NCBI GenBank assembly: GCA_031841125.1
Contig: CM063108.1
Coordinates: forward strand, 23,921,399 to 23,985,398
Origin: Acanthococcus lagerstroemiae
Taxonomy: Eukaryota > Arthropoda > Insecta > Hemiptera > Eriococcidae
DNA length: 64,000 nt
Reading direction: 5' to 3'
Numbering within the stretch: the first letter of the stretch is position 1; the number at the start of each line of letters is the position of its first letter. Below, piece by piece: positions 27,371 through 48,498 of this stretch. The translations under genes and the position numbers were made by a program. The notes below the pieces were generated by a model, which was not told the origin of the DNA, did no database searches, and worked only from the letters and a program-made list of their open reading frames with translations.

Positions 27371-27773
27371 ATGCCTGACGTTCAGATCGCAAATAGCGAA
27401 TTCGAATACGCAGAAAAAATTGCATTACCACTGGAAGATGACGGAACGCTTTTGCTGACCACTGTCGCGGCTTATTTTCCCGGAGCTTCCGGTTTGAAGT
27501 ATCGTAAGGACGGTTGTATACATGGTGTCAAAGTCTCGGATGGCAAATTGCACCCTCCCACAGGCGGATGGAGTGAACTCAGGACTTACATTTGCATGTG
27601 TCCGCCAGGTAAGTCGAACTCGGAAAAAGCATTGGTATTATTTGTTTCGAATATAATTATTATTCTCTCAGCTATTCATTATTGACATTGAAGCTCGCAG
27701 CTGTTGATATATATTCCGTAATTTTGTTACAGTTGGTACCAGTACGATGATGGTGTCGGATTCCGTCGACGTT
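27371..27773 (+). CDS. TDP-43-type N-terminal domain, two exons, start of a split gene
   Basis: Exon 27371-27608 (ATG at 27371, donor GTAAGT) and exon 27733-27773 (acceptor TTACAG, donor GTAAGT) join in phase. They encode about 93 residues. The first 80 align well with the N-terminal domain of TDP-43/TARDBP: LPLEDDGTLLLTTVAAYFPG matches the conserved DDGT and FPGAxGLxYR core, followed by GGW and the tail MCPP. In TDP-43 this ubiquitin-like (DIX-like) domain makes head-to-tail polymers. No RRM or glycine-rich tail follows, so this is not ordinary TDP-43. The second exon ends in phase 0, and the next same-strand helical exon starting in phase 0 is at 40418, beyond the copia composite. I infer it is the amino-terminal module of the gene ending at 47670. 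Confidence 0.72.
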
Positions 27774-28705
27774 GTAAGTAAACCAATCTTGAAACAAACA
27801 CAATTTTTTCAACTGACGAGTGAAGAGATGACTATCAGCTGTTGTAGACTTATCATATCATTATCAACGATGGTACGAGAATTGGCACGAAGAGAAAGTT
27901 ATGGGTTCCTAATTATTCTTCAAAGACGAGAACGAGTCGATTTTTTCTCAGGGCTCTCATCATTGCTATGATCGTAGTCGTAATCGTGACCATGTGAGTC
28001 TTCAGCTTCAATCTTGTTGAAACGTCTCCGGTTTCCTACTGTGGTTTCGTTTTTCCGATTCTATCATGGTTTCTCCGTTCCTAATATTCAAATTTCTCGC
28101 ATCTTCTCTCCATCTTACATAATCGTTCTTGTCATTCGTTTTTGAACGATCGTTGATGTGTGGATGTACGTACACAAGAATTACTTGTAATAATGCTCTC
28201 CTTTAGCGTTGTCTATACCCAATATTGACCAACATTTGTTTTTCGAGATTAGATTAGTTTTTTAGACAAATTTGAAACTTATTTCTCGTACACATCGTTC
28301 AACTGACGTCTGTTTTGTATCATTTCAACGTGATTTCCGATCACATTGTAAAATACCAATGACTTCAATTTGACAATCTCTTCGAGTAATTCATTAAGCG
28401 TGTTTCAGATCCGAATCACGACGAAAAGAAAAAATACGAGTTCTTTTCAGATCCTGATCTCGATAGAAAAAAAATACGGTTTTTTTTTGAATGAGCTATC
28501 CTCGAGAACCATATCATTTCTGTAATTAAATGTTTCAAATTCACTCTTAGAACTTGAAGGTTCTGATGATGTGGTACGTCTACTCGTGAATTTGATGATC
28601 ATGTTTGTCAGCCAAATAAGCGATTTTGATTAACGTGAAAATTTGATTAGGAAGAAAAGGTTTGATGTATGACTCGGATTTGATGAGAAACAATAATTTT
28701 AGGAA
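27774..28705. other. Intron-like sequence related to 38.1-38.6 kb
   Basis: No exon recognised. Positions about 28180-28360 and 28590-28710 are similar to about 38110-38280 and 38440-38552 (same orientation), sharing for example CTTGTAATAATGCTCTCCTTT and GAGAAACAATAATTT blocks. The right end supplies the target site of the outer copia element. Confidence 0.5.
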
Positions 28706-28710
28706 ATAAT

Positions 28711-28944
28711 TGTTGTTATTTGCTCGTTTTCTTTTGGCTTTATCAAAGAATCTTTTTGCCAACTGTATGGAAATACAAACCTTGACACCATCAACCTTGA
28801 GCCTTCTGAATATTTTTGTCTGTGAAAACTGTAATGTTGTTCACGCTGTCGAATTTCATTATTATGTTGCTGTTGTCTTCGAAAATGGAATCGTGAATAT
28901 AAAAAAGTATAAAAATGTAGCACTTTCATTTATTTGCTCTAACA
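28711..28944 (+). repeat. 5' LTR of the outer copia element
   Basis: This 234-bp LTR has TG...CA ends and matches 37719-37952 base for base as far as I can read. The reverse-strand ORF in each copy is a by-product of that identity. Confidence 0.93.
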
Positions 28945-28946
28945 AA

Positions 28947-28960
28947 GGTTATGGGCCCAG
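28947..28960 (+). promoter_or_regulatory. Primer binding site complementary to initiator tRNA anticodon arm
   Basis: GGTTATGGGCCCAG begins two bases after the 5' LTR. It is complementary to the anticodon stem-loop of initiator methionine tRNA (CTGGGCCCATAACC), not to a tRNA 3' end. This is the half-tRNA priming known for Drosophila copia. The inner element has the related GGTTTTGGGCCCAG (34437-34450, minus). Confidence 0.8.
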
Positions 28961-29058
28961 ATTGTGGTCAAAATGATGTATCTTTATGTAATAATGGTTA
29001 GTGCGACTTGTTTTGCCCATGATAATTTCTTCTGAAGTTGTTCGTGTTGTGTGGAGCT

Positions 29059-30868
29059 ATGGCCGCAAGTGTAGTAGACAAAAGCGGTATCAAGCCATTT
29101 GATGGATCCGGTTACGACGCGTGGCGGTTCCGGATGAGATTGCTACTGAGAAAAGAAGGTGTAGAAGAAATTATTGATGAACCCGTTCCGTCTGTCCGAA
29201 ACCAGAGTAACGAGTGGAAGTCAAAAGATGCAAAATGCGCCAACCTCGTGGTGAGTCACTTAGCGGATAACATGCTTGACCTCGTGTGCACTCACAGAAA
29301 TGCCAAAAGTATGTGGACTGCAATTGAGCAGAACTTCAAACGGAGGTCGGATGATAGAATAGTGGAGCTTCGAGATGAGCTCAGTGAAATGCCATTTAAG
29401 TCTGGAGATGACATGAGATCGTTCGTCACAAAATATCGCACCATAGTCAACGAGCTGGGAACCCTAAACTGTGCGATTACAGTGAAACAACACATGCTCA
29501 AGCTACTGAAGAAACTGCCTTCCGATTTCTTCACTATTCGAATGCAGTTGGAGCAAGCTACAGAGATGCCAACCTGGGATGATTTGACAAACCAGTTAGT
29601 AAATGCACACAAAGCAATCTGTGGAACCAAGACAACTACTGCGGCTGCGTTAACAACCCCGGCTGTGCCCAATTCCAGTGAATCTACCGGTAAAGTCGCC
29701 ATGGCTGTCCAGGGTGAGAAGAAAACAGTTGTATGTTACAGATGCAGCAAGCCAGGCCATGTGAAACGAGACTGCAGAGCCCGAAGTGGTAACTTTGTTG
29801 GTAATTCTGGTAATCACGGTGGTAATCCAAAACCTGGTCATTTTAATAATTTCAGGAATGTGCGTTGTTTCAGTTGCAATGGTACTGGTCACGTTGCAAA
29901 AAATTGTCGCGGCTTTAATAATAGTAATTCTAATAATAATCAACGAAATCGTGGTTATGATGGTCGTAACAATCATAACAATGGTAATTATACACGGGAG
30001 TTTCATAATCATGGTAATTATTCTCGAAATTTTCGTAGTCACGATAATCAAAATAATTTTGGTGGTGATTTTCGTAGTAATGAAAACCAACGGAATGTAA
30101 ATAACGCTAATTTAGATCACAATGTGGTAGTTATGAATGTTGGGTGTAAGGATAGTAACACAAAATGTCCGAGTGGTATGCTACAGTTATATCTAGATTC
30201 TGCAAGCTACGACCACATGGTCAATACTGACAAATATTTTGATTGTTTTATTGAGTTGAAACATCCAGTCAGCTTTAAGGCGGCAAATGGTCAGCCTTTG
30301 GTAGCAACTAAGTTAGGCCATATCAAATTTAACCTGAATGGAAGTGAGGCCTATATAAAAAATGTGTATTATGCCGAGAACCTACTCCAGAATCTGCTAT
30401 CGATGGCTAGAATTTGTGATAATGGTCATAAGGTAATTTCATCTGATAAGAGTGCAGAGATAGTGGACCAGAGTAGTGATGGGCAGTATCGATACATTTA
30501 TACATCGATGTTTTCGATACTTTGGAAATTGTGTATCGATGCATCGATACACCTTCTTTATGGAAAATATATCGATGTATCGAGCGATGCATCGATACAT
30601 CGCCCACCACTAGACCAGAGTGGTAGGACGCTTTTAACAGGTATGAGGAAAGGGAACTTGTACGAAGTGTTGATTGAACCGATTATGAGTGGAGGAATGG
30701 TTGCTGCAATAGATAGAGACAGTACCACTTACCTGTGGCATAAGAGACTTGGTCATTTAAACTTTCGTGATTTAAAGTGTATAGGCGATCGGGAAGGACT
30801 TCCCATCAAGTCCATACCAGCTGATGAACTGTGTGAGTACTGTATTTATGGAAAACAATGTAGGAAAC
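29059..30868 (+). CDS. Outer copia Gag, protease and start of integrase
   Basis: The ATG at 29059 (MAASVVDKSGIKPFDGSGYD) is preferred over the earlier in-frame ATG at 29038. Gag occupies about the first 200 codons and has the copia-type Gag helices (YDAWRFRMRLLLRKEGVEEI). Two CCHC zinc knuckles follow, CYRCSKPGHVKRDC (about 29734) and CFSCNGTGHVAKNC (about 29864), then an Asn/Gly-rich spacer. The protease motif is LDSASYDHM (about 30190), slightly unlike the usual DSGAS order. The zinc-binding start of integrase (HKRLGHLNFRDLK, then CEYCIYGKQ) comes before the frame is cut by the inner copia at 30869. A hAT-like miniature element (30474-30612) inserts 49 codons without breaking the frame. Confidence 0.85.
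30474..30612. mobile_element. 139-bp hAT-type miniature element inside copia pol, in frame
   Basis: It starts TAGTGATGGGC and ends GCCCACCACTA, with an exact 8-bp target duplication GACCAGAG at 30466-30473 and 30613-30620. The interior is made of ATCGATGCATCGATACA-type palindromes. Insert plus duplication is 147 bp, a multiple of three, and contains no stop in the pol frame, so the host ORF stays open across it. Confidence 0.88.
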
Positions 30869-31065
30869 TGTGAGAATAATCTATTGATCGATATTTAAAG
30901 AGATCACATTTTTAAGAAAACGTTTATTTAAGAATAACAAAAAACGAAGTCCGCCATCAACAAAAATAACAGCGAAAAAGAAGAAAAACAAAATGTGGCA
31001 GGGTTGCCAATAATCAAACAAAAAAACAACGCGTCAGCACGGTTAGACTGTTGGTTTAACTAACA
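30869..31065 (-). repeat. LTR of the inner copia element (3' LTR in element orientation)
   Basis: A 197-bp direct repeat of 34451-34647 with TG...CA ends. Confidence 0.9.
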
Positions 31066-31098
31066 CTCGCCCCCAACCATGCGCACATTACAAAAAAA

Positions 31099-33430
31099 TT
31101 ACGATAAATTTAAATGTTTCACAAACTTATTAAATTTGTCTGTATTCAAACCTTTTGTAAACACATCAGCAGTTTGCTCTAATGTACTTATGTATTTAAT
31201 TTCTACAATTCCCTCTTTCAACAAATCAGATATAAAATGAAATCTTATGTCAATATGTTTACATCTGCGATTATTTTCAATATTCTTAATCATATTGATG
31301 GTACTCTGATTGTCTTCATAAATAACAGGGGTTGCATACTTAATGTTTAAATCCTTTAGCAAATGTAACAGGTGCAATAATTCACAAGACGCAGTGCAGA
31401 TTGCAACAAATTCACTTTCAGTGCTTGACAAGGTTACAATTGGCTGCTTACGAGAAGAGTAACTGACAACATTATTGAATAGTTTGACACAATATCCAGT
31501 TATTGATCTGCGATCATCTACATCATTGGCAAAATCAGCGTCAACATAACAAGAGACTTTTGCTACGTCACATTGTTCAGAGTAAAAATGCATTTTTAGA
31601 TTCACTGTTGAGATAACATACTTCAACACGCGAAGTAAGTGTTTAAAGTGAGTGTCTGTAGGATTCTGTTGGAATTTTCCAAAATAACTTACAGAAAATG
31701 CTATGTCTGGACGGGATCCAAGCATAATATACATCAGGCAACCAAGCAGTTGCTTATAAGGCATTTTTGTGTTAAGCTCAATATTCTGATTGACCAACAG
31801 GTTTACTTTGCTTTCAATGGAGTACTAACAGGTCGACAATTAATCACATTAAATTTACTTGCAACGTTTTCAATCAAATCCTTTTGATCAATGGTCATTA
31901 CTTTACTTTCTACATTACAGTTTACATTTAGACCGAGAATTTTTGAAACTTTGCCAAGGTCTGTCATTTCAAATTCTACTTTAAGTTTTTCTTTAATCTC
32001 ATTTAATATACTAGGATCATTTGAAGTCAAGAGGATGTCATCAACATAAAAAACAACATACGATAAAAAATTACTCTGCCTTTTAACAAAGAGACAATAA
32101 TCTGCACGAGAACGTTCAAAACCATTTTTGAGTAGGAAGGTAACCAAACGTTCATTCCATGCTTTAGGAGCTTGCTTAAGGCCGTACAGAGATTTTATTA
32201 ATCGACAAACTTTATTATTACTGTTTACTTCTAAGCCACTAGGCAAGGACATATAAATTTCTTCCTCCAATATGCCATTTAGAAAGGCATTTTTAACGTC
32301 TAAGTGATGAACATCCTGATTTTTATCATTACAGACAGTTAAGACGGTACGAATCGTAGTTAACTTTGCAACTGGGACAAAAATGTCATTGTACATTTCA
32401 GAGGTTTGTTCACATCCACGAACAACTAATCTGGCTTTAAAAATGCCATTGTCCTTGATGCGAAAAACCCAACGATTACTTAATACAGGTTTATCAACCG
32501 GCTTGTCAACTAATTCCCAAGTATTATTTTTAATTAAAGCGTTAAGTTCTTCATCAATAGCCGATTTCCAATTATTCCGAAATTTACCTTTTAAAGCTTC
32601 AACGTAGGTGTTAGGAATGTTATTCACAAATGCTTCTACGTTATAAACACAATAGTCACTTGAAATTGAATCATTAGTGTCAAAGTCAGGAATGATAATG
32701 TTTTCAATATCATCTACGTTAACAATAGGAACAGTATTATTTATGTCCTCTGGAATTTTTATGTTGTCAATATTATCCAGATCAAATTTAAAATTACTGT
32801 CAAAAACACTTCGTTCATTAAAAATAATATCTCGACCTTCAATTATTTTTCGTTCATCTGGATTCCATAAGCGATAACCACGCGGACTGTAACCAACAAA
32901 AATTAGCTTCTTACTTTTTAAATCAAATTTACCGTTACAATTGTCCTTTAGTAAATAAGCATCGCATCAAAGATTTTAAACTTTGAAAAATCAATATTAC
33001 GATTGTACCAGGACTTAGCCGCTAATTTTGTATTATTACAGCTAGGTGTACGATTAAAAACGTATGTGGCACACAATATTGCTTCTCCCCACATTTCTAA
33101 ATTCAACTTAGAGCTTGCTAAGAACGACCGAGCCTTTAATAATAACGTATCATTAAGTTTCTCCGCTTTACCATTCATCTGAGGATTATTCTTAATAGTA
33201 TTTTCAATACGAATACCTTTTTCTCGACAAAAATCAATCATTTGTTGGTTAAGATACTCGGTGCCGTTATCACAACGTACGGCACTTACAGGTAAATTAT
33301 GGTGACTGGTTGCTTCATTTACAAACAGCTTGAACTTTTCAAATACTTCACTCTTCGATTTCAACAAATATACGGTAGCAAAGTTAGTGAAGTCGTCTAA
33401 AAAGGTTAAGAAATAACGACTGAGTAGATG
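31099..33430 (-). pseudogene. Inner copia Pol: integrase, RT, RNase H in broken frames
   Basis: Integrase core resumes about 33425 (RYFLTFLDDFTNFATVYLL, then the DNGTEY catalytic stretch and KNNPQMNGKAEKLN) and is cut by a frame break near 32948. RT runs 32627-31803, with RWVFRIKDNGIFKARLVVRG, DVKNAFLNGIL, YGLKQAPKAWNE and the YVDD box. RNase H runs 31797-31099, with SRPDIAFSVSYFG, VDADFANDVDDRRSITGY, the EDN motif and ADVFTKGL. The breaks at 32948 and between 31803 and 31797 mean no full Pol can be made. Confidence 0.85.
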
Positions 33431-34319
33431 CGCTGAACGCTATTTTACTTTTACAATCAGCAACTAAATGACCAAAGCCCGTACACTTATTACAAAGAAT
33501 CGATCTATCTAAATTTTTCGGCTTACGACAGTCATTCATTTTATGACCAGGCAAATTACAATTTAAGCAGCGAATACTAGATTTACCATCGGATTTATCA
33601 CTAGAATTCTGATTGCCACTGGAATTAAAGTTACGTTTAGCGCGATTATTATTACCTTTATAATCACGTGCAGTATTACGATTACAGTTAACAGTTTGAT
33701 TACTTGAATTAGTCGTAGTCATTGCAACTTTATTTGGTTCAGCAGGGTCAGACTTCACAGTTTCAAGATCGAAATCAAGTAGGGTTGACACTACTCCATC
33801 AAAGTCATCGAGCGCCTTCGTTATTCTTAGGATGTCAGCAACCGGTTTATAAGTTGACGGCAAGGAAGATAACAATTTTCTTGAAATTTCTTTATCTTCC
33901 ATTGTTACTGAGGCCTCTTGTAGCAGTCGAACAATCTCACGAAATTTATTAATGTGTTCGGACAGAGAGCCTTTTTCATACTTAATTTCATCGTATTTCT
34001 TTTTAAGTACGGAGATTACTACCTCACTTTCCCGTTTGAAGCATTTTGAAAGAGCCGTCCACATATCAAAAGCAGTGATTGAATTCTTGACAGTTTCAAG
34101 CTGGGAATCAGCAATGGTTTCCACGATCAAGCGTCGGCATTTACAATCCTCATGTATCCATTCATCGGTTCGATTTTTTTTGCTTGTTTGATTGGATATA
34201 TAGGATATTAATTTTTCTTCCTCCAACATTAATTTAACTCGAAAAGACCAGTTGTCATAGTTTCCTCCGTTAAAGAGAGGAATTCGACGCCGATCATTAC
34301 TGGAACTGTTCGCCGCCAT
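33384..34319 (-). CDS. Inner copia Gag
   Basis: This ORF begins MAANSSSNDRRRIPLFNGG at 34319. It shows the copia Gag fold signature (NYDNWSFRVKLMLEEEKLI) and a KxxYDEIKYEKGSLSEHI helix. Two CCHC zinc knuckles (CLNCNLPGHKMNDC and CNKCTGFGHLVADC) come near the end. Immediately after them the frame runs into a deletion junction: protease and the N-terminal part of integrase are absent, and the remaining 15 codons are in the wrong frame for integrase, ending at a stop at 33384. Confidence 0.85.
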   Translation of the reverse strand: MAANSSSNDRRRIPLFNGGNYDNWSFRVKLMLEEEKLISYISNQTSKKNRTDEWIHEDCKCRRLIVETIADSQLETVKNSITAFDMWTALSKCFKRESEVVISVLKKKYDEIKYEKGSLSEHINKFREIVRLLQEASVTMEDKEISRKLLSSLPSTYKPVADILRITKALDDFDGVVSTLLDFDLETVKSDPAEPNKVAMTTTNSSNQTVNCNRNTARDYKGNNNRAKRNFNSSGNQNSSDKSDGKSSIRCLNCNLPGHKMNDCRKPKNLDRSILCNKCTGFGHLVADCKSKIAFSASTQSLFLNLFRRLH

Positions 34320-34450
34320 ACCTCAGGATTACAGCACGATTTTTGATTGCGAAGCCGCGAACATTAAAAAATTAAGTTACGAGAGCTGCGAACGTTGATA
34401 ATTACATTAAGGACACAGCGTAGGTCAAGTCGTGACCTGGGCCCAAAACC

Positions 34451-34647
34451 TGTGAGAATAATCTATTGATCGATATTTAAAGAGATCACATTTTTAAGAA
34501 AACGTTTATTTAAGAATAACAAAAAACGAAGTCCGCCATCAACAAAAATAACAGCGAAAAAGAAGAAAAACAAAATGTGGCAGGGTTGCCAATAATCAAA
34601 CAAAAAAACAACGCGTCAGCACGGTTGGACTGTTGGTTTAACTAACA
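34451..34647 (-). repeat. LTR of the inner copia element (5' LTR in element orientation)
   Basis: A 197-bp direct repeat of 30869-31065; one base differs by my reading. Confidence 0.9.
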
Positions 34648-35601
34648 GAAAGTGAGTTTGATAACTTTACAAAGGATCATGGTATAGATTTTCAACACAG
34701 TGTACCATACAGACCTCAACAGAATGGTCAAGCTGAACGATTAAATCGCACGTTACTTGAGCGAGCTCGTACAGCTTTGTTGGAGAGTGGCTTAAACACC
34801 ACTTATTGGACTCAAGCAGTATTTTACGCTGCGTACACTATTAATAGGTCACCGACAGTAGGAGGCAAGGTACCTGCAGAGTTATGGTTTAATTCAAAAG
34901 TTGACTATAAGATTATGCACCCGTTTGGCTGTGCAGCATATGTGCTGAAAAATAACACTGAATCTAAGCTCAGTTCAAAAAGCAAGAAAATGCGATTTGT
35001 TGGTTATGCACCAGGAAGTTACAGGATCTTAGATGAAAAAAATGGAAAAATTACATTGTCGAGAGATGTAATATTTGATGAAGCGATTGTTTGTGAGCCT
35101 GATCGTGAAGAAGCTAATAGATTTCATGAGATAGACCTGGAGAGAATTGATGACATTCCAATCGTTGGATGTGTGTATACCGTTGAAAAGATGCTGGATA
35201 AGGTACCAGAAAATGTTGGAGAAGCTCGAAGGTCACCTGAGTGGAATTGCTGGAGGGAGGCAATGCAGACTGAGATAGATAGTATCAATGCACAAGAGGT
35301 GTTTGAATTTGTAGAGAGACCCAAAAATGTGACCCCAATCTCAACAAGGTGGCTGTTCAGGAAGAAAAGTGACAAACTATTTAAGGCTAGACTCGTTGCA
35401 AGAGGGTTTGAACAGACAGACTTGGAGTGTGATATCTATGCACCAGTGGCCAAATTGTCTACATTCAGAGTGCTATTAGCAGTGGCTGCCCAAAAGGGGT
35501 ATTATGTTGAGCAAGCAGATGTGAAATGTGCATACTTATATAGTCCACTACAGGAGTTGGTTTACATTGAAATCCCTGAAGGTCTAGTGACAAAGTACTA
35601 G
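34648..35601 (+). CDS. Outer copia Pol, integrase C-half and start of RT
   Basis: Coding resumes after the inner element with ESEFDNFTKDHGIDF, the part just after the second catalytic Asp of integrase, then RPQQNGQAERLNRTLLE carrying the catalytic Glu. So the zinc finger (left of the inner element) and the third acidic residue are kept, while the stretch between them is gone. GYAPGSYRILD and the RT start (WLFRKKSDKLFKARLVARGF, QADVKCAYLYSPL) follow. The frame is interrupted at 35599 by a hAT-like insertion that supplies a stop. Confidence 0.85.
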   Translation, partial: ESEFDNFTKDHGIDFQHSVPYRPQQNGQAERLNRTLLERARTALLESGLNTTYWTQAVFYAAYTINRSPTVGGKVPAELWFNSKVDYKIMHPFGCAAYVLKNNTESKLSSKSKKMRFVGYAPGSYRILDEKNGKITLSRDVIFDEAIVCEPDREEANRFHEIDLERIDDIPIVGCVYTVEKMLDKVPENVGEARRSPEWNCWREAMQTEIDSINAQEVFEFVERPKNVTPISTRWLFRKKSDKLFKARLVARGFEQTDLECDIYAPVAKLSTFRVLLAVAAQKGYYVEQADVKCAYLYSPLQELVYIEIPEGLVTKY

Positions 35602-36309
35602 TGATGGGAATTTTAGGTCATTTAGTATGTCTAGTTCATTCGGTCTCGGTCTTCAGAATGTTTAGGTAAAATGTTTAGTTCATTTAGGTCATTTAGGTCA
35701 TTTAGTTCAAACTGCCCGAAACGCACTGAATAATCTGTCAACACATTTACAAAGCAGTAGTAGTTACACCGCACGGTGATTTAACCTGTTGTGTGCTGTC
35801 TTCCGTAATCTTTTGCTCTTTTGATATTTCTTTTGTGTTTTGTTTGTTTAATATTGATTTACAGGTTTTATGATCATTATTTAAGTTATCTGTATTAAAG
35901 TTACTTAAAATGGGTTTCGCGCCCTAGAAAAAGGACCCATACAACATGGAATTTAAATACTGTTCTACGTAAACATTTCTCCTGGAACGCGTGAATGGAG
36001 ATGAAGGTAGAAGAATATAGGTATGCGCGAGAGTTGGCACGCACCCTTCATTATCCTATTTCAATCTCGGTAATCTGATCATTCTGATCACCGAACATCG
36101 ATGTCGATCATACGGTCTTCTCCGCAGTTCATTTCACATTTCGGTTTCGTTCTCATTCGTTACTTTCTTCATTCAGTTTGTTTCGGTCAATTTCGGTAGT
36201 TCAGTTCATTCTGTGAACTAGGTACTTTAAACGTTTAGGTCTCGGTCGTTTAGTTCAACGTGATGTTTAGTTCAAATGAACTAGTACATGAACTACCGAC
36301 ACATCACTA
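35599..36309. mobile_element. 711-bp hAT-type non-autonomous element in copia RT
   Basis: It begins TAGTGATG and ends CATCACTA, and is flanked by the exact 8-bp duplication CAAAGTAC (35591-35598 and 36310-36317). Subterminal regions repeat TCATTTAGGTCATTTAG-type and TTTAGTTCA words. No transposase ORF was seen. The ends are the same type as the 139-bp element at 30474, suggesting one family of transposase mobilised both. Confidence 0.88.
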
Positions 36310-36317
36310 CAAAGTAC

Positions 36318-37445
36318 AGTAAAGAAGACTATGTTATCAGATTAAAGAAGGCATTGTATGGGTTAAAGCAGGCACCTAGAGCCTGGAATGAACATCTTCA
36401 CGAGTTTCTTGAAAAATTAGGCTTTAAACGATCTTTGGGTGATGCTTGCTTGTATGTTTTGGAAGTTGAAGGACAAGTTATTTATGCTCTGATATTTGTT
36501 GATGATTTTGTAATTGTGAGTAGTAGTGAGTCTTTACTCCAAAAATTCAGAGTTGAAGTATGTGAGAAGTTTACAATGTCAAGTTATGGAGAGATTGGTA
36601 CATTCCTAGGAATTCAGGTGAGGTATGACAGAGAGAGAAAGATTGCTACACTGGATCAAGAAGAACTGATTAAGAAGATGAGTCTGAGGTTTGGAATCAC
36701 TGAAACAACACAATTTGCTCCTATGGAAGAAGGTTTAAGATTGGAACCTGTTGAAGATGAACTTGAGAGGACGAAGTTGCCATACAAGCGCTTATTAGGA
36801 TGTTTAATGTTTTTAATGCTCGGTACTCGACCAGACATCTGTTTTTGTGTGAGCTACTTGAGTCGATTTCAAGACAAGGCGAGTGACACACATTTTCGTC
36901 ACCTAATGAGAGTACTAAAATACTTGCATACTACAAAGAACCAGAAACTTGTGTATGACTGCTCAAGGGAAGAAAGTAAACCAATCACTGGCTACGCTGA
37001 CTCTGATTGGGCCAATGACATTATGGACAGAAAATCCACCTCAGGCTACTGCTTTAAGGTCTTTAATGCCGTTGTAAGTTGGTCCAGTAAGAAACAGTCG
37101 CTGGTAAGTCTGTCAACTGTAGAAGCCGAATATGTTGCCTTGGCAGAGGCCAGTGCTGAACTTTTGTGGTTGAGGAAAATTTTGTGGAGTTTGAATATTG
37201 CTACTGAAGAGTCAGTCATCCATGAAGATAATGTGAACTGTATCAATCACGTCAAGGATATTAATAACGCCTCTAAACGTACCAAACACATTGATGTCAA
37301 ATACCACTTTGTAAAAGATCTAGTTGCAAAAAGGATCATTCGTTTAGAGTATATCTCTACCAGTACGCAGTTAGCCGATATATTTACAAAAGCTTTGTCT
37401 CGACAAGCACTAGAAAAGTTTAAGAGTTTTATTCCTATAAAATAA
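36318..37445 (+). CDS. Outer copia Pol, rest of RT and RNase H
   Basis: The frame continues from the target duplication with KKALYGLKQAPRAWNEH, the catalytic ALIFVDDFVIV box (about 36495), TRPDICFCVSYLSRF, and RNase H motifs YADSDWANDIMDRKSTSGY, VEAEYVALAEA, HEDN and LADIFTKALS. It ends at the stop at 37443. The open frame begins slightly earlier, at 36288, inside the hAT insertion. No other stops or frameshifts were seen. Confidence 0.88.
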   Translation, partial: SKEDYVIRLKKALYGLKQAPRAWNEHLHEFLEKLGFKRSLGDACLYVLEVEGQVIYALIFVDDFVIVSSSESLLQKFRVEVCEKFTMSSYGEIGTFLGIQVRYDRERKIATLDQEELIKKMSLRFGITETTQFAPMEEGLRLEPVEDELERTKLPYKRLLGCLMFLMLGTRPDICFCVSYLSRFQDKASDTHFRHLMRVLKYLHTTKNQKLVYDCSREESKPITGYADSDWANDIMDRKSTSGYCFKVFNAVVSWSSKKQSLVSLSTVEAEYVALAEASAELLWLRKILWSLNIATEESVIHEDNVNCINHVKDINNASKRTKHIDVKYHFVKDLVAKRIIRLEYISTSTQLADIFTKALSRQALEKFKSFIPIK

Positions 37446-37718
37446 GTTTAATGATCAGTTGTATTATTATTATTATTATTTTTTTTTCTTATCACTATAT
37501 TGGTGGTTCTTTTATTGGTTCCTGTTAAATAGAATTAGTGTATCAAGTATTACATTATCCTAAAATATGTATTTGTCAGCATATCAATTTCATACTGCAT
37601 ACACCGTAGTATTTTTATGTTCAATGTTCTAACTTAGATGCCTGTTATCATTTTGCTATACTATTCCATTTTGTTTTTGTTTCTTGTAATTTGTTAGTGT
37701 CAAGGTTTGTGGGGGAGG

Positions 37719-37952
37719 TGTTGTTATTTGCTCGTTTTCTTTTGGCTTTATCAAAGAATCTTTTTGCCAACTGTATGGAAATACAAACCTTGACACCATC
37801 AACCTTGAGCCTTCTGAATATTTTTGTCTGTGAAAACTGTAATGTTGTTCACGCTGTCGAATTTCATTATTATGTTGCTGTTGTCTTCGAAAATGGAATC
37901 GTGAATATAAAAAAGTATAAAAATGTAGCACTTTCATTTATTTGCTCTAACA
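37719..37952 (+). repeat. 3' LTR of the outer copia element
   Basis: Second LTR copy, preceded by the polypurine tract GGGGGAGG (37711-37718) and followed by the target duplication ATAAT. Confidence 0.93.
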
Positions 37953-37957
37953 ATAAT

Positions 37958-40226
37958 TACCGTAATTTTTCGGACGGAAAATACCTCGTGGTAGTAAATT
38001 TCGAAGGAATTCGAATCGTGATTTATGCGATTCATTTTTTAGATATCGATGAAAAAATACAGGTCTGAATCCTCGTTCCGGTTCTCATGTAATTTACGTA
38101 CTCTGTAGAGATACTTGTAATAATGCTCTCCTTTCGCGTTATCTCTACTCAATATTGACCAACATTCGTTTTTCGAGAATAGATTAGTTTTTCAGACAAA
38201 TTTGAAACGTATTTCTCGTACACATCGTTCAACTGACTGTTTCCTATCATTTCGACATGATTTCCGATCACTTCAATTTAACGATCTCTTCGAGTAATTT
38301 ATTGAGCGTTGGGATTTTCATGAAACGAGTAGTATTTTTCATTAAGCTAGAATCTTGTTGGTCTTTAGATAGTATTCGTATCGTTTTTTTTACCTCGTTC
38401 AAGAAATTTTACGTGGTACATCTATTCACGAATTTTATGATCGTGTTTGTCAGACAAATAAGCGATTCTGATGAATGTAGAAATTTGATTGGAAAGAAAA
38501 GGTTCGATGTATGAATCAGATTTATCGAGAAACAATAATTTCGGGAAATAATTACCGTAATTTTTTGGACGGAAAATACCTCGTGTTAGTAAATTTCGAA
38601 GGAATTTGAATCGTGTATCGAGATACGTTTGATTTAGAACAACAACTAAAAATGTAAATTTTCGTAATCGAGTGCGTCAGTCAAGTTGGGGTAGCTGTCA
38701 AAACGTACAGGGAGTTTGTATTGTAATGTACAGGACGAGAGAAAAGTTTGTGATGATAATCTCAATTGAATTTACGTACATACCTACATCATTTTTTTTG
38801 CCATCGATTTTTTCAAAGTTGTGAAATAATTTTTCGTTTTTGTTACTCTCGAACGATGAAATTTTGTTTCGTTTCGTTTGCCATCTCTGTGTATCGTTCT
38901 TCAATACTTTTCTCTCATGAATTATCATTCGTGTACAAATATCTGAATACACATCGTTCAACTGACTGTTTTGTAGCACTTTGCGACGGCGACGTGAATG
39001 TAGGGATATTTTCAGATTCATATCTGGACAAAAAGAAAAGAAATACGCAGGATAAATCAAAAAGGGTATTCAGTTGTTCGTTTTTTGTGAAAGAAGAAGA
39101 AAAAAAAATTATTCATTCTCATTCGTAAACTTTTGTTCTGCTGTCAATTTGTAGGCTAATCATCTCTGGTTGATTGTATGACAGTTCTGATCGAAGCTGC
39201 TACAAATGAACGATGATGAAATTTGAGTTACCATCCTTTTTTACTTACAAAAGTTTCGAAGAGTTTTCTCTTTTTCTTTTTCAAGCTGAAAGGGTACTGT
39301 CTTCGATTTTCCTTAATATTCATAATGAAAATGAGATATTTCAACCATCAAAAATACGATTAATTTCTCGTTAAATTCTCTACATACAGCTTACCATGAA
39401 ACAAAAAGTTGAGTGATGTTTTTTCTGCGTAATAATTGTAAATTATTTCGTTTTTGAAATGAGTAACGGTTCTGTAATGACGAGATTGTTTTTTTTCTTC
39501 GAAATACGTGTTTCGAATACGAGTATCGAAATTCATCAAACTGATATTACCAATAAGCTTCGTCTTGGACAGTACTGAATAGAAAACTTCCGTGTTGTTC
39601 TCTGTCCCTCTGTGTTTTGTAAGTATTATTCCAATTCAAGATTCAACAACAAGGCGTTGTGATTATTATGAATACTCGGGCATTGAACACATATTCATCA
39701 AATTTATTGTCGGAACACATTTATCTAGTTCACTTACATTTCGTAAAAGAAACAATAAACTGTAGTACCGGAATGAAAAGGCGTTATTTTTTCACTGAAG
39801 AGATCGCCTTCCTCAAAATTGTTGTTCCATCACTTCATCCTTAATGATAAAATCTTAGAATCAGTTGAAACTGTTTAGATTGTTTCGATATCAAAATGTC
39901 AAAACACGCGTTTACACGCGTCACTGTGTTGGCGAGTTTGTTTTGTGATACATGCAGTGTGGCCACATTCACTAATATTTCAAACACGAGAGGGAAATTA
40001 CGGGAAATAATTCAGAATGAATTTACGAGAAAAGGAGAGCTAATTAAGAAAAACAAAAAGCGGCATTGAATTCAGCGTGAAAAATACTTCCAGAATCGGC
40101 TACTCTCGTTCTTGCGGTTTTTTGGCTGTTGGGTAGTGTTATATGAAACAAAGTGTTGAGGCACTTTTTTTCGCTATTAGCTGTTTTTGAACAATCTTCA
40201 ATGTGCGAATTAAGTGTTTGCGAGAA
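37958..40226. other. Intron-like stretch of repeated blocks, no clear exon
   Basis: No exon I can defend. Several blocks recur in the window in the same orientation: 38110-38300 resembles 28180-28360; 38560-38690 resembles 43435-43550 (GGAAAATACCTCGTGTTAG block) and 37965-38010; 38705-38890 resembles 45005-45175; 39215-39420 resembles 45600-45805. They behave like duplicated intron parts of the split gene or an old dispersed repeat. Confidence 0.5.
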
Positions 40227-40525
40227 TTTTTGTACTGTATTAGGGAAAGGTATATTTCATATTCAATCTAAAAATGCTTGAGTTTTTGTGACATGTCTAA
40301 GTCATTCATTATCAGATATACATTCGTATGTATCATTGTTTTTAGACATTGAAATTTGTACATTGAAATAGAGTGTATACGCTTCCTTTTTTTCAATACT
40401 TCCCATTTTTATTTCAGCCAGATGCGTTGCAAAGAATAGAAAGGAAACTTGAACAATTAATCGAGCAAAGAATAGAAGAGAAACCAAAGCTGTTGATGGA
40501 AAAATTGGATAAGGTTTATTAATAT
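40227..40525. repeat. Left copy of a 299-bp duplication flanking the RTE LINE
   Basis: Positions 40227-40525 equal 42429-42727 except for one base (AAACCAAAG against AAACTAAAG). The RTE insertion lies exactly between the copies. The block contains the end of an intron, a 96-nt exon (40418-40513) and its donor. Confidence 0.95.
40418..40513 (+). CDS. Helical exon of the split TDP-43-NTD/AAA gene (first copy)
   Basis: A good acceptor (TTTTTATTTCAG) precedes 32 codons rich in Glu, Lys, Leu and Arg (PDALQRIERKLEQLIEQRI and so on), ending LDK before GTTTATT. Both ends are phase 0. The heptad-like Leu/Ile spacing suggests a coiled coil. Its phase fits the TDP-43-NTD exon ending at 27773 and the exon starting at 42793. 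The donor GTTTATT is weak. Confidence 0.6.
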
Positions 40526-42428
40526 TTATTTTAATTTTATTTTAATGCTTTGGCTAGGCGCGCCGCTGCTGCCTAGTCCGCCCATCGCTGAGCATAAGCA
40601 TCCGTCACCCTGGCCCAGGCTATCCTATTTTGTGCAGTTATTGACCAAGATACTCCCACCTCCTTCACTATTTCGTCGAGCCATCGCGTCAGTGGTTTGC
40701 CTTGGTTCCTCTTTTTGTCGTATGGGACCCATTCAGTCAAAGCTAAGTTCCATTTTCTGATTTTATTTCTTGCTAGGTGTCCTGCGTACTTAAATTTTAA
40801 TTTTTTGATGGTGTATCCAACGTTTGTAGCTCTCGTTATTGATTTGATTTTTGTATTTTTAACTTTATGTTTCAGCCGGATTTTTAATATGCTTCGCGGG
40901 ATAGCATTTTGACTTTTTTGTAGCCTTTGTGTTTGACTTTTGGTCAGTGCCCATGTTTGGGCCCCATACGTCAGGACCGGTGTTATGCAGCTCTCTAGAA
41001 TTCGAATTTTCGTTGTTAATTTGGTTGGCCCTTTTAAAATCATTTTGTGGGACCAAAAGGCCCTCCAAGCTTTTGCGATCCTAATTTCTATTTCTTTTGA
41101 GGCTCGGTTGTCCCAGGTAATATTTTGGCCTAGATAGGTATAATTATCCACTTTTTCGATTAACAAGTTATCTGCCTGTATCTCAGTAACGCTTTCATCT
41201 TTTGACATAAGTTTTGTTTTTGACGCGTTAATAGAGAGACCTACTTTGGTACATTCCGTTTTCAATTCGATTAACATTTTTGATAACTCATTTATGTTTT
41301 TGCCAATTAAGATTATATCATCTGCGAAGCGGAGATGGTGGAGCCAGCACCCGTTTATTTTTAACCCTCTACCCTCCCATTTTAGATTGCGAAATATTTC
41401 TTCTAGAATACAATTGAAGATATTGGGTGAAAGAGGGTCCCCCTGTTTGACTCCTCGTAGTATTGGGAAGTACTCGCCTCTCTTATCTAGTCTAACGCAA
41501 GCTTCTGAGTTGTTATAAAGGTGGTGCAGCACATCGATAATTTGGGATGGGACGCCTTGTTTTGTCATCGACTCCCATACGCTAGAGTGTGAAACCGAAT
41601 CGAAAGCTTTGGTGAAGTCGACAAAAACGAAGTTTACTTCAAAGTTATATTCTTTTGACTTTTCAATGATTTGATTGACTGATAAAATATGGTCGACCGT
41701 GGAGAAGTCTCTGCGGAAGCCGGCTTGGTTTATAGGTTGATGGAAATCGAGATTCTTATAAACCCTTTCTTTTAGGATTTTCATAAAAATTTTGCAGACG
41801 TTAGATGACAGATTGATCGGACGATAGTTATTAATATCAGCCTGGTTGCCTTTCTTAAATAACAGAATTATTTCTGTTTTATGCCATTGCATTGGAGTTA
41901 CGCCTGTCATTAAAATAAGGTTGAAAATAACGGTTAAAGGTTTAGCTATTACTTCTTTCAATGTTTTCAGCATGTGGTTCTCAATCTGATCTGGTCCTCC
42001 TATTTTATTTATTTTTAATTGTGAAAGGGTTTTTTCAGTTTCAGTAATAAGAATGGGAGGTACTTTCTCTGTGACATGGTTAGTCTGTCTCTGACCCGGT
42101 GAATTGCTGGGAGACGGCTCTGGGTAAGCTGCGTAGAGATTGCTGTAAAATTCAGTAGCTAAGTTGATAATTTCGTCCCTTTTGGAGGTTAGGGTACCGT
42201 TGTTTTTTATTAGTTTTGGGAGCAAGCGTGTCCCTTTGCTAATTGCCTTCCAGGCTTGTTTAGTGGACCAGTTGGTTTCTATTATTCCAGTGACTTTATC
42301 AAATTCGAATTTTTTGACATCGTTACGTATTTCTCTTCTTATCAATTTATTCATTTCCGCTAATTCTATATTTTCGATTGTTGAGCGCTTTGGTTTCTTT
42401 TTTAGTATAGATCTTTCCTCAATTAAGG
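40526..42428 (-). mobile_element. 5'-truncated RTE-clade LINE
   Basis: On the minus strand the element starts (truncated) at 42428 and ends at 40526 with an A-rich tail containing AAAATAAAATTAAAATAAAT. It carries RT but no endonuclease. It is flanked on both sides by the 299-bp duplication. The near-identity of the flanks implies a very recent insertion. Confidence 0.88.
40573..42354 (-). CDS. RTE reverse transcriptase (ORF2 C-terminal 593 aa)
   Basis: An open frame from 42354 to 40573 without stops. It shows KKGNQADINNYRPINLSSN, the VDFTKAFDSVSH motif, GVKQGDPLSPNIFN, the catalytic LRFADDIILI box (about 41310) and a YLGQNITWD stretch. The C-terminus reads YAGHLARN, then GKPLTRWLDEIVKEVGVSW, typical of RTE-type endonuclease-RT proteins common in arthropods. 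The first Met is internal; the true ORF2 N-terminus with the APE endonuclease is lost by 5' truncation. Confidence 0.88.
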   Translation of the reverse strand: MNKLIRREIRNDVKKFEFDKVTGIIETNWSTKQAWKAISKGTRLLPKLIKNNGTLTSKRDEIINLATEFYSNLYAAYPEPSPSNSPGQRQTNHVTEKVPPILITETEKTLSQLKINKIGGPDQIENHMLKTLKEVIAKPLTVIFNLILMTGVTPMQWHKTEIILLFKKGNQADINNYRPINLSSNVCKIFMKILKERVYKNLDFHQPINQAGFRRDFSTVDHILSVNQIIEKSKEYNFEVNFVFVDFTKAFDSVSHSSVWESMTKQGVPSQIIDVLHHLYNNSEACVRLDKRGEYFPILRGVKQGDPLSPNIFNCILEEIFRNLKWEGRGLKINGCWLHHLRFADDIILIGKNINELSKMLIELKTECTKVGLSINASKTKLMSKDESVTEIQADNLLIEKVDNYTYLGQNITWDNRASKEIEIRIAKAWRAFWSHKMILKGPTKLTTKIRILESCITPVLTYGAQTWALTKSQTQRLQKSQNAIPRSILKIRLKHKVKNTKIKSITRATNVGYTIKKLKFKYAGHLARNKIRKWNLALTEWVPYDKKRNQGKPLTRWLDEIVKEVGVSWSITAQNRIAWARVTDAYAQRWAD

Positions 42429-42727
42429 TTTTTGTACTGTATTAGGGAAAGGTATATTTCATATTCAATCTAAAAATGCTTGAGTTTTTGTGACATGTCT
42501 AAGTCATTCATTATCAGATATACATTCGTATGTATCATTGTTTTTAGACATTGAAATTTGTACATTGAAATAGAGTGTATACGCTTCCTTTTTTTCAATA
42601 CTTCCCATTTTTATTTCAGCCAGATGCGTTGCAAAGAATAGAAAGGAAACTTGAACAATTAATCGAGCAAAGAATAGAAGAGAAACTAAAGCTGTTGATG
42701 GAAAAATTGGATAAGGTTTATTAATAT
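42429..42727. repeat. Right copy of the 299-bp duplication flanking the RTE LINE
   Basis: See 40227-40525; one mismatch. It contains the second copy of the 96-nt helical exon. Confidence 0.95.
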
Positions 42728-43169
42728 AACAGATATTAATTTATGAATAGAGAAATAAAGTTCTTCTAAATTAAATATGTATTATTTTCTAGGATCATAA
42801 CAAACTGGCTGATCTTGAAGCTCTATTTCTAACAAGAAATGTCTCACAACTAATGCTACAAGTACTGAATAAAATTAACACCCGCAGTCAATTTGAAAAC
42901 AGTGTATTTTGTCCTGATAGAAAGAAGAAATCCATTAGACCGAGTAAATTGCACGTAATATAAAACCGCAGGTAGACTCGGAATTATATACCTATGAACA
43001 ATATATTAAAGATAAAAGTGACTTAGTAACGATAGATAAGAAAATTGCAAAACCGCGCAATAAGAAAGGGCATCCTATCACAAGTTTGAAAGAGATTTCT
43101 GCAAAAGATTTTGAAAGTGATTTACAATTGGTCAAAAGTTCCAAAATTATTTCTGATGATGATGTAAAG
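42620..43169 (+). CDS. Helical exons of the split gene (second copy and following)
   Basis: Three blocks read in phase 0. The first, 42620-42715, is the duplicated coiled-coil exon. The second, 42793-42954, has acceptor TTTTCTAG and encodes DHNKLADLEALFLTRNVSQL and so on. The third, 42972-43169, encodes VDSELYTYEQYIKDKSDL and a Lys/Asp-rich stretch ending DDDVK before GTATTT. Between the second and third lie only 17 bp (42955-42971), GTAATATAAAACCGCAG, which contain a stop and begin GT and end AG. The segments are hydrophilic and predicted helical; I know no domain for them. An acidic ORF fragment at about 43268-43325 (EDETGQQNTTCID) may be a further exon. Confidence 0.5.
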
Positions 43170-43935
43170 GTATTTGTGAGACTACGGAAATATGTACTGC
43201 GTGAGTGATGATGAGTTATAATAGGTGTTATTTTTGCAATTTGACTGGCACTAGCAACTACTTAAAAAGAAGACGAGACTGGTCAACAAAATACGACGTG
43301 TATTGATGCGTCAAGTGAACATAACATAACTGATTAGGTACAAATGCAAGTAAATGATAAAACGGTACAGGACAACGACCATGTCAGGCTTGCCAACGGT
43401 GGCCACGAATAACGAATATATTTACAGGGTTACGGAAAATACCTCGTGTTAGTAAATTTCGAAGGAATTTGAATCGTGTATCGAGATACGTTTGATTTAG
43501 AACGACAACCAAAAATGTAAATTTTTGTAATCAAGTTCGTCAGTCAAGTAACACTACTGACGTAATTTGAAAACAAGCTCATGACAAACATTAAGTGTTT
43601 AGCCATAAAAAAAAAATCATTTCTGCTTTTGTATACGAGTTGAAATTTTCATAATTCAGAATCTAAAAGTTAGAATGATCATTTGGTAATTAATTCTCAG
43701 TCACGCGGGAGATTTTTTGTGATTATCAGGGGAATAGGTCTTCGTATCTGATCAATCTACAAGTACATCTTTGTTTTCTTAAATAAACTTGAGTTGAGTC
43801 CTGGGTGATCCTTCTGTGTGAATAATTCAGATTCGATGTGATGAAATAATTTTATTCGTTCGATAAATTAGGTATCGAGAATTCTATGTGTTACAACTTT
43901 TTGTACAATTCAATTCCATTTTTATTGCATTACAG

Positions 43936-44441
43936 GAAGGAACTGTGGTGCTGACGAAGTACATGCTTGAAAGAGATCCTGGTAAGTTTTCCACAGAAGG
44001 ATTCAGTACTCATTTATGCACAAAATTTGAATATAAATTTCTATTATTCAGGAATTAAGGTTTAATAATGAAAATTGCCTGGGAACTATTTGAAAGTTGA
44101 TACTAACTTTTTGCTTTCAGAATTTGAAAAAAAAATTTACCGTATTATTCCTGGGCGAATGCGCAAACGTTATAAACGCAGCCTTAGACAGTTACGACGG
44201 AGAATTATTAAGACAGTTTACCGTACACTGCAATTTGAACGATGATGAATACGCAACATTTAAAGAAGAATTAAAAGGTAGGAATGAACTACGACGTGCA
44301 GAGGCCCACCCGGGTGGTAAAAAGATAGAAAACTTTGGAATAGAAGAAACCAGGAAAAACTTATTATTGTTAAACCTTGAAGGTTTATTTTTCAGTAGGT
44401 ACGACAAAGTACACAATTTCATAATTAATATGAACGTGTAG
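43936..44441 (+). CDS. Exons of the split gene before the AAA exon, one frameshift
   Basis: Exon 43936-43981 (acceptor TTACAG; EGTVVLTKYMLERDP; donor GTAAGT, phase 1) is followed by an exon from 44121 (acceptor CTTTCAG). The second exon reads EFEKK across a run of nine A and then, after a one-base shift, FTVLFLGECANVINAALDSY, DEYATFKEELKGRNE and further charged sequence to a stop at 44439-44441. Eight A would keep the frame. Its right end is uncertain: AAAAG followed by GTAGGA at 44278 could be the true donor. I do not recognise the domain. The order, strand and spacing suggest it belongs with the AAA/nuclease exon 1.4 kb downstream. Confidence 0.5.
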
Positions 44442-44819
44442 ACTGCATCATGTATAGTTTTTTTTGAAGAGAATTCCAATTTTTTGTTTTTTTGAAGAGA
44501 ATTCCGATTTTTTTTCGGAAATATATTTTTATATAGGTAATCATTTTTCATTATTTTTCCTAGGCGTTACTTTTTGCAAAAAATATTAGTAGATACGGTA
44601 AGTACATATCTGTACATTCAGAATTACTAGTGCTGTCCACCCAATAATCTTTGTTATTCTCGAGTATTTTTATAAAGAGTTCTTTTTTTTCGAATTCTTA
44701 CGTATTTTTTAAATAATGATAATAATAATAATTAAGGATGATGTACTCAAGTATTCCTAATAAACAATCTCTAATAAGTTAAACTTCTTCTTGATTTCAT
44801 AAATTTGTAAGTATGAATT

Positions 44820-45000
44820 GAGCACTCAGCTGAATCCTTCTAAGTCATCAATAAATGAAATATAATCAAATTTTTTGTTACTTTGATTTTCTTTTTGTTT
44901 GTCTGGTTTTATGACTAGATTATTATTCAAATTGTTATAAACTTTTCTTGACTTAGTATCTTTAGGTTTTTCTTCTTTACTGGATATAATATGATTGCAT
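44820..45000 (-). pseudogene. C-terminal fragment of the AT-rich HTH-like ORF
   Basis: On the minus strand this reads a tail ending KENQSNKKFDYISFIDDLEG plus FS, about 80% similar to the end of the ORF at 47984-48369 (FDYLSFIDNLEG plus FS). Many differences leave the protein similar, so both came from a coding family. The upstream part is missing here. Confidence 0.55.
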
Positions 45001-45843
45001 TGTCAGGGAGTTTGTATCGTAATGTAGACGACGAGAGAAAAGTTCGTGATGATAATCTCAATTTGAATTTACGTACATACATCATTCTTATCATCGATTT
45101 TTTCGAAGTTGTGAAATAATTTTTCGTTTTTGTTACTCTCGAACGATGAAATTTTGTTTCGTTTCGACTTTTCTCTCATGAATTATCATTCGTGTACGAA
45201 TATCTGAATACACATCGTTCAACTGACTGTTTCGTATCACTTCGTGACGTGAACGTAGGATATTTTTGGATTCATATCTGGACGAAAAGAAAAAAAAATA
45301 CAGGATGTTTTCAGATCCGAATCTCGACGAAAAAAAAAAATGATCTCTTCGAGTAATTTATTGACCGTTGAGATTTTCCCGGAAGTAATTCGAGTAGATT
45401 AGGAGGTATTTTTCGACGTGTAGTGAGAAAATAATTTTCTACTCGCTGATAACAATCTTCGATTATGAATGATCATTTGGTAATTAATTCTCAGTCATTA
45501 CAGATTATAATAATCGTTCTAATTACATCATGAACTTATCAGAAACATTATACACGTAAAAGTAGAGAAATTTTTATGAAATCCAATATGAAATGGAGGA
45601 TGACCAAATTTGAGTTACCATCCTTTCACACTTACACAAAAGTTTCGAAGAGTTTTCTCTTCTTTTTTTTTTTTCAAGCTGAAAGGGTACTGTCTTCGAT
45701 TTTCCTTAGTATACATAACGAAAATTAGATGTTTCAACCATCAAAAATATGATTAATTTCTCGTTAAATTCTCTACATACAGCTTATCATGAAACAAATG
45801 ATGTTTTTTCTGTGTAATAATTCTCAACTATTTCGTTTCATAG

Positions 45844-47670
45844 GTACCAATGAAGAAACCAAAGTTTGTCACCTGTGATGTTGGTCCGGTTTCATTTAAA
45901 GAAATACAGTACTCGAAATACTTTGTAGACAAAACATTAGTAATAAAAGAGGTATTCAACCAGAAATCCAAAGTTATGTTGAATACCACACCCCCGCGGT
46001 TTGGTAAAACCATAAACTTAGATACAGTACGTGAGTTCGTCGAAAAGAAGGTACAAGCCGATGGGACAGTTCATCCACCTGACTCCCTCAATTATTTTGA
46101 AGACACTAATATTTGGAAAGAAGAGGAAATACGAAGACACTTCAGAGAATACATCGTAATAAGTCTTAATTTTGCAGGAGCTCCAACGGATTTAAATTCA
46201 GCTATCAACTGTCTTGAATGGGCTGTAAAATAATCATACTTGAAGCACGATTATCTTCTGAACAGTCCGAAAATAAGTTCAAATTTGAAAGAAGTTTGTC
46301 AACGTTGGTGTAATTACAATAGATGTTCAGGAAAGAAAGATCAGAATGATTTTGGAAGTAGTATACTCTGCCTTAAAAATGCTCTGGAGATGCATCATGG
46401 TGAAGATGAAATGTTCATAATCCTTGTCGATGAGTTTGACCAGATAATTTCAAACTCTATGTTTTGTCTTAATGAAGCCAAGCTCGAAGTAATTGTGAAA
46501 ACTAGAGATTCCATTTTGAAAATCATCAAACACAACGCTGAAAACATTAAATATAGTTTTTTAACCGGGGTTGCAGATATAACATCGATAACCGGGTCGC
46601 TGATTAATAATGATGAACGATTTGCTTTTTTAGACAGTACATGTTTCTTTTCGTACTATGGCTTATTGGAAAGTGAATTCTCAGAGCTCGTTAAAAATGA
46701 AAGTGTTGATGATAATTTTTGTTCAAAATTGAAGGAGTGGTACAATGGATATGAACTCAATAATCAAAACATTTATAACATTTGGTCAGTGATCAAAGCT
46801 GTACGTGCAAAAAGAACTGAAGACTTCTTTTCAAACAAAAGTTTAATCACAGGCATCATACCCATAATCAGAGATCATAAAATGGATGATATTATGAAAC
46901 AAATTTTGATTAAGAAAGCAATTCCATGTACTGATTTGCTAAAAAATTTCATGTCTGTAAAAGATCTTGCAGCTCTAGGCTCGTATTGTAAGGGTCGTGA
47001 TAATTCTATTAGTAATAAAAAAATTGATGGTAATATTTTATTGCAGATACTTTTTCAATTGGGGTATTTAAATAAGACTCCAAACGGACTAATTGTTCCT
47101 AATTTAGCCATTTTAAGTACTCTGAAACGTCTATATGTTTCCACTTTTATGGAGATACATTCTATAATTGACTTAAATGAATGTGCCCGGTCATTTCCTG
47201 TTCACAAATATGATCTTAATGAGTTTAAATTATCAACATTTTGTGAACATTTCAAAGATCTTCTGATTTTCAATACAAAAATACCTCTTAATCACCAGCT
47301 CATTCACTCATTACTTTTTTCCATAATATTACATAGCAATCAGCCATGGACTGTAGTTAGTTTTGAGTGTCCTGTTACAGAAATAGCCCACAGTAATAGG
47401 TGTGACATAGTATTAGGTATATGGAGCTTTGTTATTGTTATTGAGATAAAATACAAACTTTCTGTATCGAAAGCCATGCAGCAAATCATTGATAGATTTT
47501 ACACAGATGTTGTCAAAAATGAATTTATTATAGAAAATTCAAAAGATATCTCTCATATTGTACGGTTTGGTATTGCTGTAAGTAAAGATAGAAAACCCAC
47601 CATGAAGATGGAGATACTCGATTATAAAAATGATAATAATATTGTAAAATCTTTTTCATCGCCGTCTTAA
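45844..47670 (+). CDS. AAA-ATPase-like + PD-(D/E)XK nuclease exon, one in-frame stop
   Basis: A terminal exon (acceptor TTTCATAG before 45844) encodes about 608 residues of the AAA-ATPase_like/PDDEXK_9 architecture. The N-terminal signature is FKEIQYSKYFVDKTLVIKEV. A P-loop variant PPRFGKT lies near 46000, Walker B FIILVDEFDQI near 46425, the sensor-like FLTGVADI near 46560, and EWYNGYELNNQNIYNIWSV near 46735. The C-terminal nuclease has RCDIVL, the EIKYK catalytic motif near 47445, AMQQIIDRFY and FGIAVSKDRK. A TAA at 46231-46233 interrupts the frame between the two ATPase halves; otherwise the frame is open to 47668. The family is common in bacteria and scattered in eukaryotes, often multi-copy; its role is unknown, and selfish or effector functions have been suggested. 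An exon border and AT content like its neighbours argue against bacterial contamination. Confidence 0.82.
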
Positions 47671-47983
47671 AATTTTTCAATGATAATACATGTTTGTTGT
47701 GAAGAATTAAAATATATAGTATTAACAATTTGTATATGTACTGAAATATAGAAAACCATGAAATGTCCTTTTCTAGTTAGATTTGTTATTGGAGTTATTA
47801 CTGATTAAAGCTATTTTGATTATAAGAAGTCAATTTTGAATTATTTATTCCATTTTAGAGTGGAAAAGTCTGAGAATTTTTTCAAACATGTTCCAAAAGT
47901 TCCGTAACTTGATGACAACTTTCAGAAAACAATTGTGACTTGCTAAAAATAAGAAAAATTCTTGATTCCCTAAAATTGAACAC

Positions 47984-48369: not shown

Positions 48370-48399
48370 TTATTTATAAAATTTTTGAGAATGGGAAAT

Positions 48400-48488: not shown

Positions 48489-48498
48489 TTAGATATAA

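Follow-up and report, generated by a model that had tools for sequence, protein, structure and literature searches.

Probable header-NTPase-nuclease genes with SAM or TDP-43_N headers in the genome of Acanthococcus lagerstroemiae

In a window of 64,000 nucleotides of the Acanthococcus lagerstroemiae assembly (C3:23921399-23985398, contig CM063108.1, in a 658-Mb genome of 438 contigs), a pair of exons encoding a TDP-43_N domain lies upstream of an exon encoding an AAA-ATPase_like domain and a nuclease-like C-terminus. Judged from the sequences of this window and of related loci, it seems that genes joining a header, a nucleoside triphosphatase (NTPase) and a nuclease probably existed in this genome and that their headers were exchanged. 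To the reading that self-associating SAM or TDP-43_N headers stood upstream of AAA/nuclease exons we give a rough probability of 0.6, while it is possible, though somewhat doubtful, that the TDP-43_N exons of the window were once spliced to the AAA exon of the window itself. The exons concerned are as follows.

27371..27608, plus strand: TDP-43_N (ubiquitin/DIX-like) header exon 1, with an ATG at 27371 and donor gtaagt (PF18694, 9.8e-24 over 27371-27610; splice model open)
27733..27773, plus strand: header exon 2, short, closing in phase 0, donor gtaagt
45679..45843, plus strand: 3' end of the intron leading to the AAA exon, acceptor included; AAA paralogues resemble one another here
45844..46230, plus strand: AAA-ATPase_like exon, Walker A part (TTPPRFGKT; Pfam 2e-13), exon start common to paralogues
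46231..46233, plus strand: in-frame TAA, present also in a 98-99% identical copy (L010)
46234..47670, plus strand: AAA-ATPase_like Walker B part (ILVDEFDQ; Pfam 6.6e-6) and C-terminal PD-(D/E)XK-like region (RCD..EIKYK; alignment, model and fold comparison)

PF09820 (AAA-ATPase_like, cut-off 26.1 bits) has 29 matches genome-wide, which we grouped into 26 places (both lower bounds). Uninterrupted AAA ORFs occur at C2:1046946, C3:63975140, C2:345794 and C4:14642388. Twenty stretches of ~10 kb (L009-L028), representing 21 of the 25 places other than the window, were searched for TDP-43_N in six frames and for SAM upstream on the sense strand, with 5.4-8.0 kb covered before the (first) AAA match in each. 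Six of them show a header or the end of one, namely TDP-43_N in L023, SAM in L015, L020 and L027, a SAM-like header in L018 and a header end only in L013.

The probable exchange of headers shows in L013 and L018. L013 is 94.9% and 94.6% identical to L015 and L020, respectively, starting exactly at the first base after their acceptor, and the 71 nt before that base are the end of the L018 header (71/71 identical). The match of L018 to L011 spans a 156-nt intron of L011 that is precisely absent from L018, and L013 and L018 as wholes are 64.6% identical over 1070 columns, header end included. As read from these alignments, two different AAA paralogues carry the same header end, attached exactly where the exon begins. 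Such exon-exact joints point to spliced RNA, and the presence of one header end on two AAA paralogues means that headers were probably exchanged. A target-site duplication was seen at neither copy. The spliced header-AAA copy of L013 is bracketed by a 59-nt sequence and its inverted copy (L013 7266-7324 and ~9362-9420), as if it had been captured by a foldback-type element.

SAM exons occur upstream of AAA exons at three loci (L015, L020 and L027, with SAM_1 scores of 31.0, 34.1 and 23.4 bits versus a cut-off of 23), and of the two kinds of header SAM is the better supported. For TDP-43_N, L023 has a match (C6:21608863) at a distance of 1 kb upstream from an AAA match (C6:21609949) on the same strand; here plausible splice sites, all in phase 0, allow the TDP-43_N exon to be joined to the AAA exon through one of 54 nt, with the frame open to the AAA stop. 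The number of such pairs that chance alone would give (17 x 24 pairs, one strand) is 0.0003 for distances up to 1.1 kb and 0.006 for distances up to 18.5 kb. Near another AAA match (C8:43051837), a TDP-43_N remnant with two stops sits 8.6 kb downstream. L023 also holds an open reading frame (ORF; 3593-4636, minus strand) resembling by eye a DNA polymerase piece of a Polinton or virus-like element.

In the paralogues sharing the window acceptor, the AAA exon itself has no conserved start codon, begins in phase 0 and so depends on an upstream exon. The intron sequence ahead of this acceptor is similar in the window and in L010, L011, L015, L016, L020, L022, L023 and L024, and 45679-45880 is matched 14 times in the genome. 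The similarity has persisted in spite of saturated coding synonymous sites in the deep pairs examined (L011, L016 and L022), and in L048 the same intron end follows an exon of the 44121 type (see below) without any AAA. The shared intron end may thus be a trace of exon exchange. The deep paralogues have a nonsynonymous divergence (dN) of 0.36-0.54 despite the saturated synonymous sites, which argues for long purifying selection on the AAA family. In L017, a stretch resembling part of HSP60 by eye (7545-7862) stands in frame ahead of AAA-ATPase_like, the only domain listed there by Pfam.

An AAA-ATPase-like/PDDEXK exon at 45844-47670 had been claimed, of which the NTPase is borne out by PF09820 in two pieces (45844-47667, split by one TAA; 51.1 and 26.5 bits) and the C-terminus looks PD-(D/E)XK-like, but PDDEXK_9 (PF08011) has no match at E<=1 in 46234-47667. 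The claim that a stop breaks the gene holds, and the TAA is shared with L010 (C3:10.57M; 98.7% identity over 45470-48958). Over the two pieces taken together, the window copy and L010 are separated by 13.2 nonsynonymous and 1.8 synonymous changes, which is not enough to reveal constraint. Because of the common stop and changes without visible constraint, the AAA copy of the window is, on its sequence, a pseudogene. On balance we take it for a decayed copy from an AAA-ATPase_like/PD-(D/E)XK-like family that has expanded in this genome and whose kind is reported to have reached sap-feeding insects by gene transfer from bacteria.

The two header exons of the window splice into an open frame ending in phase 0, and in L023, L036 and L037 a short exon likewise comes after that for TDP-43_N. 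As the original prediction had it, no RNA-recognition motif (RRM) accompanies them: tblastn with four TDP-43 proteins found none in the window, while locating RRM stretches at L029, L030 and L031. Of the 17 TDP-43_N matches genome-wide, those with a locus, all but five, were checked for RRMs within 1.5-kb flanks. L029 and L031 contain stretches spanning both RRMs and L030 contains RRM1, while no RRM was seen in these flanks at L033, L034 and L036-L039. At L040 the alignment reaches part of RRM1 at 27-28%, yet without a Pfam RRM match. A single uninterrupted ORF of L040 (676-1902, minus strand) consists of TDP-43_N and a helical-looking region without a Pfam RRM, and this region has five further matches, one of them 40 kb upstream of the AAA match at C2:1046946. 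Between L036 and L037, whose TDP-43_N exons are near-identical though on two chromosomes, there are 7 nonsynonymous and 0 synonymous differences, a number that does not suffice as proof of selection.

A number of observations weigh against the proposed genes. Neither header was found in 14 of the 20 AAA stretches, and TDP-43_N stands beside AAA at one clear locus only, L023, which has stops and no in-frame ATG before the domain. L015 and L020 are near-copies and therefore count as one event, and at L015, L020 and L027 the SAM-to-AAA splice is putative. L018 breaks off once the initial part of the NTPase has been encoded, L013 holds a header end only, and their header DNA has just two matches in the assembly (L018 and L013 themselves), which contains no intron-bearing parent; since the header is found nowhere else, this parent must be lost, unassembled or too diverged. 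The nuclease ExK is altered in the alignment of L011, L016, L022 and L023, and the copy of the window has its stop and no visible constraint. No intact header-AAA gene was found among the copies read, nor any intact paralogue with both ends in one gene. Of the header-NTPase-nuclease gene as originally predicted, there remain the splice-compatible L023, SAM at L015, L020 and L027 and the spliced L013 and L018, but no intact copy. A consistent lack of TDP-43-like first exons at AAA genes had been named as evidence against it; such exons are lacking in 19 of the 20 AAA stretches and present in one (L023), within an upstream reach shorter than the 18 kb that separate header and AAA in the window.

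These 18 kb contain the following elements.

29026..37445, both strands: Copia-type retrotransposon ORFs (type named by reading)
40418..40513, plus strand: helical exon, first copy, with splice sites (gene membership putative)
40519..42428, minus strand: LINE-type reverse transcriptase insertion (type named by reading)
42620..42715, plus strand: second copy of the 40418 exon, inside a ~290-nt duplication
42793..43169, plus strand: exon of helical gene family 'H', broken by a 17-nt stop-bearing stretch through which the L049 counterpart reads
43936..43981, plus strand: H-family exon, phase altered relative to L049
44121..44441, plus strand: H-family exon, probably terminal, ending in a stop

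The LINE-type element is flanked by a ~290-nt direct duplication (40227-40518 / 42429-42720), because of which 40418 and 42620 are regarded as a single exon doubled; this exon has no relative in the 20 AAA paralogue stretches. The duplication is longer than is usual for target-site duplications. Relatives of 42972-43169 (13 genome-wide matches, window included) and of 44121-44438 (10, window included) in several cases stand far from any AAA or TDP-43_N match. L049 (C2:64.73M) keeps counterparts of 42972, 43936 and 44121 in the same order, the last running into its stop without a strong donor before it. Since relatives recur away from AAA and TDP-43_N and L049 keeps this order and ends in a stop, the exons at 42793-44441 are, as far as comparison goes, a separate gene family, broken in the window, instead of part of the predicted gene. 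Of the predicted phases, that of 27773 (phase 0) stands, but 43936 and 44121 have best donors of phases 1, 1 and 2, while the AAA exon requires phase 0. With H exons out of phase, transposon ORFs and 18 kb between its ends, a single split gene at 27371-47670 is not established. The last H exon (44121-44399; L049 136-426, minus strand) carries an R-x4-H motif before a Pro, reminiscent of HEPN RNases; the window exon has no Pfam match. Elsewhere in the window, a 495-aa ORF (6598-8085, minus strand) resembles ankyrin repeats by reading, and two ORFs beyond the AAA exon, at 47984-48310 and at 48619-49161, have complete or partial counterparts of 80-100% identity beside six of the other AAA loci compared (L010, L016 with a 29-aa piece only, L021, L022, L023 and L026).

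Given this arrangement, there is about an even chance that the window is a fortuitous row of a TDP-43_N fragment, an H gene and an AAA pseudogene brought by segmental duplication, with the fusion real at other loci only, which is compatible with header-AAA genes at the level of the genome. The interposed, out-of-phase H exons and the distance between the two ends fit such a row, as does the recurrence of most of 43432-48958 at C3:10.57M and of 43432-45884 at C423, at neither of which a TDP-43_N match is listed. However, TDP-43_N and AAA do co-occur in L023, the phases of header and AAA exon agree, and the chance expectation within 18.5 kb is low. That a single header gene was spliced either to the terminal H exon or to the AAA exon downstream, as alternative last exons, would explain why three near-identical copies hold the 44121 and AAA exons in the same order and strand, and why L048 has the intron end after the 44121 exon with AAA absent. 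Yet these three copies derive from duplication of one segment and thus represent one event, H relatives elsewhere have no nearby AAA match, and the best H donors are out of phase with AAA, which makes this highly improbable.

The AAA family could also consist of passengers of mobile elements whose neighbours are incidental, in line with the ORFs recurring near six other AAA loci and with the inverted repeats around L013; we regard this as unlikely, since the exon-exact joints of L013 and L018 suggest spliced RNA. As for the header-NTPase-nuclease genes themselves, it is tentatively proposed that phase-0 exon shuffling in the animal made a modular family out of a bacterial NTPase-nuclease acquired by horizontal transfer. 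Interchangeable self-assembling headers would be spliced to many nuclease exons, a single header even to different nuclease paralogues, and the resulting assembly-triggered nucleases might serve immunity or the control of symbionts, or be selfish. If they work as NLR-like and STAND systems do, the SAM or TDP-43_N header would form dimers or head-to-tail filaments, the NTPase would act as a switch, and the clustering of headers might turn on the C-terminal nuclease; polymerisation, nuclease activity and any defensive or selfish role are inferred.

Animal innate sensors combine a header, an NTPase and an effector. If the proposal is true, exon shuffling can bring about such a design anew, here with two animal headers that are unrelated and can self-assemble. 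It would also give a second use to the polymerisation domain of TDP-43, which is not known to occur apart from RRMs, and hint at what the AAA-ATPase-like genes transferred to sap-feeding insects do. For these, the literature consulted offers at most a possible role with endosymbionts.

Among known systems, DUF1703 of Cardinium cCpun (25 paralogues) combines AAA-ATPase_like (PF09820) with PDDEXK_9 (PF08011), its role being described as undetermined in PMC6387759. It shares with the present family an NTPase and a putative nuclease in one chain and multiple copies, whereas the present family lies in an animal genome, preceded by an intron and by header exons of eukaryotic kind; as PF08011 finds no match, the window protein is assigned to the DUF1703 kind by its NTPase domain only. 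Excerpts of other reports describe AAA-ATPase-like candidates of bacterial origin in Bemisia, citing psyllid and Coccoidea cases (PMC11800479), name an AAA-ATPase-like gene in psyllids (PMC12203342) and list such genes with variants in whitefly (PMC6582559). These acquired genes belong to the domain family of the same name, again in animals and with several copies in whitefly, and the excerpts of PMC11800479 and PMC12203342 mention no header domains; SAM or TDP-43_N headers are absent from those of PMC6387759 and PMC6582559 too. A fusion of SAM or TDP-43_N headers with AAA-ATPase_like was not found in the literature searched. TDP-43 shares the TDP-43_N domain, and an RRM-bearing gene is present as L029 (best match), while the copies in the window and at L023 were found to have none. 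Wolbachia CidB/CinB (CifB) is a match in fold comparison only, and SAMD9 and the bacterial STAND nucleases (Avs) might be analogues of the family. The Crinkler/CR effectors have the same order of header, NTPase and nuclease, with a LFLAK-type header in place of the SAM or TDP-43_N seen here.
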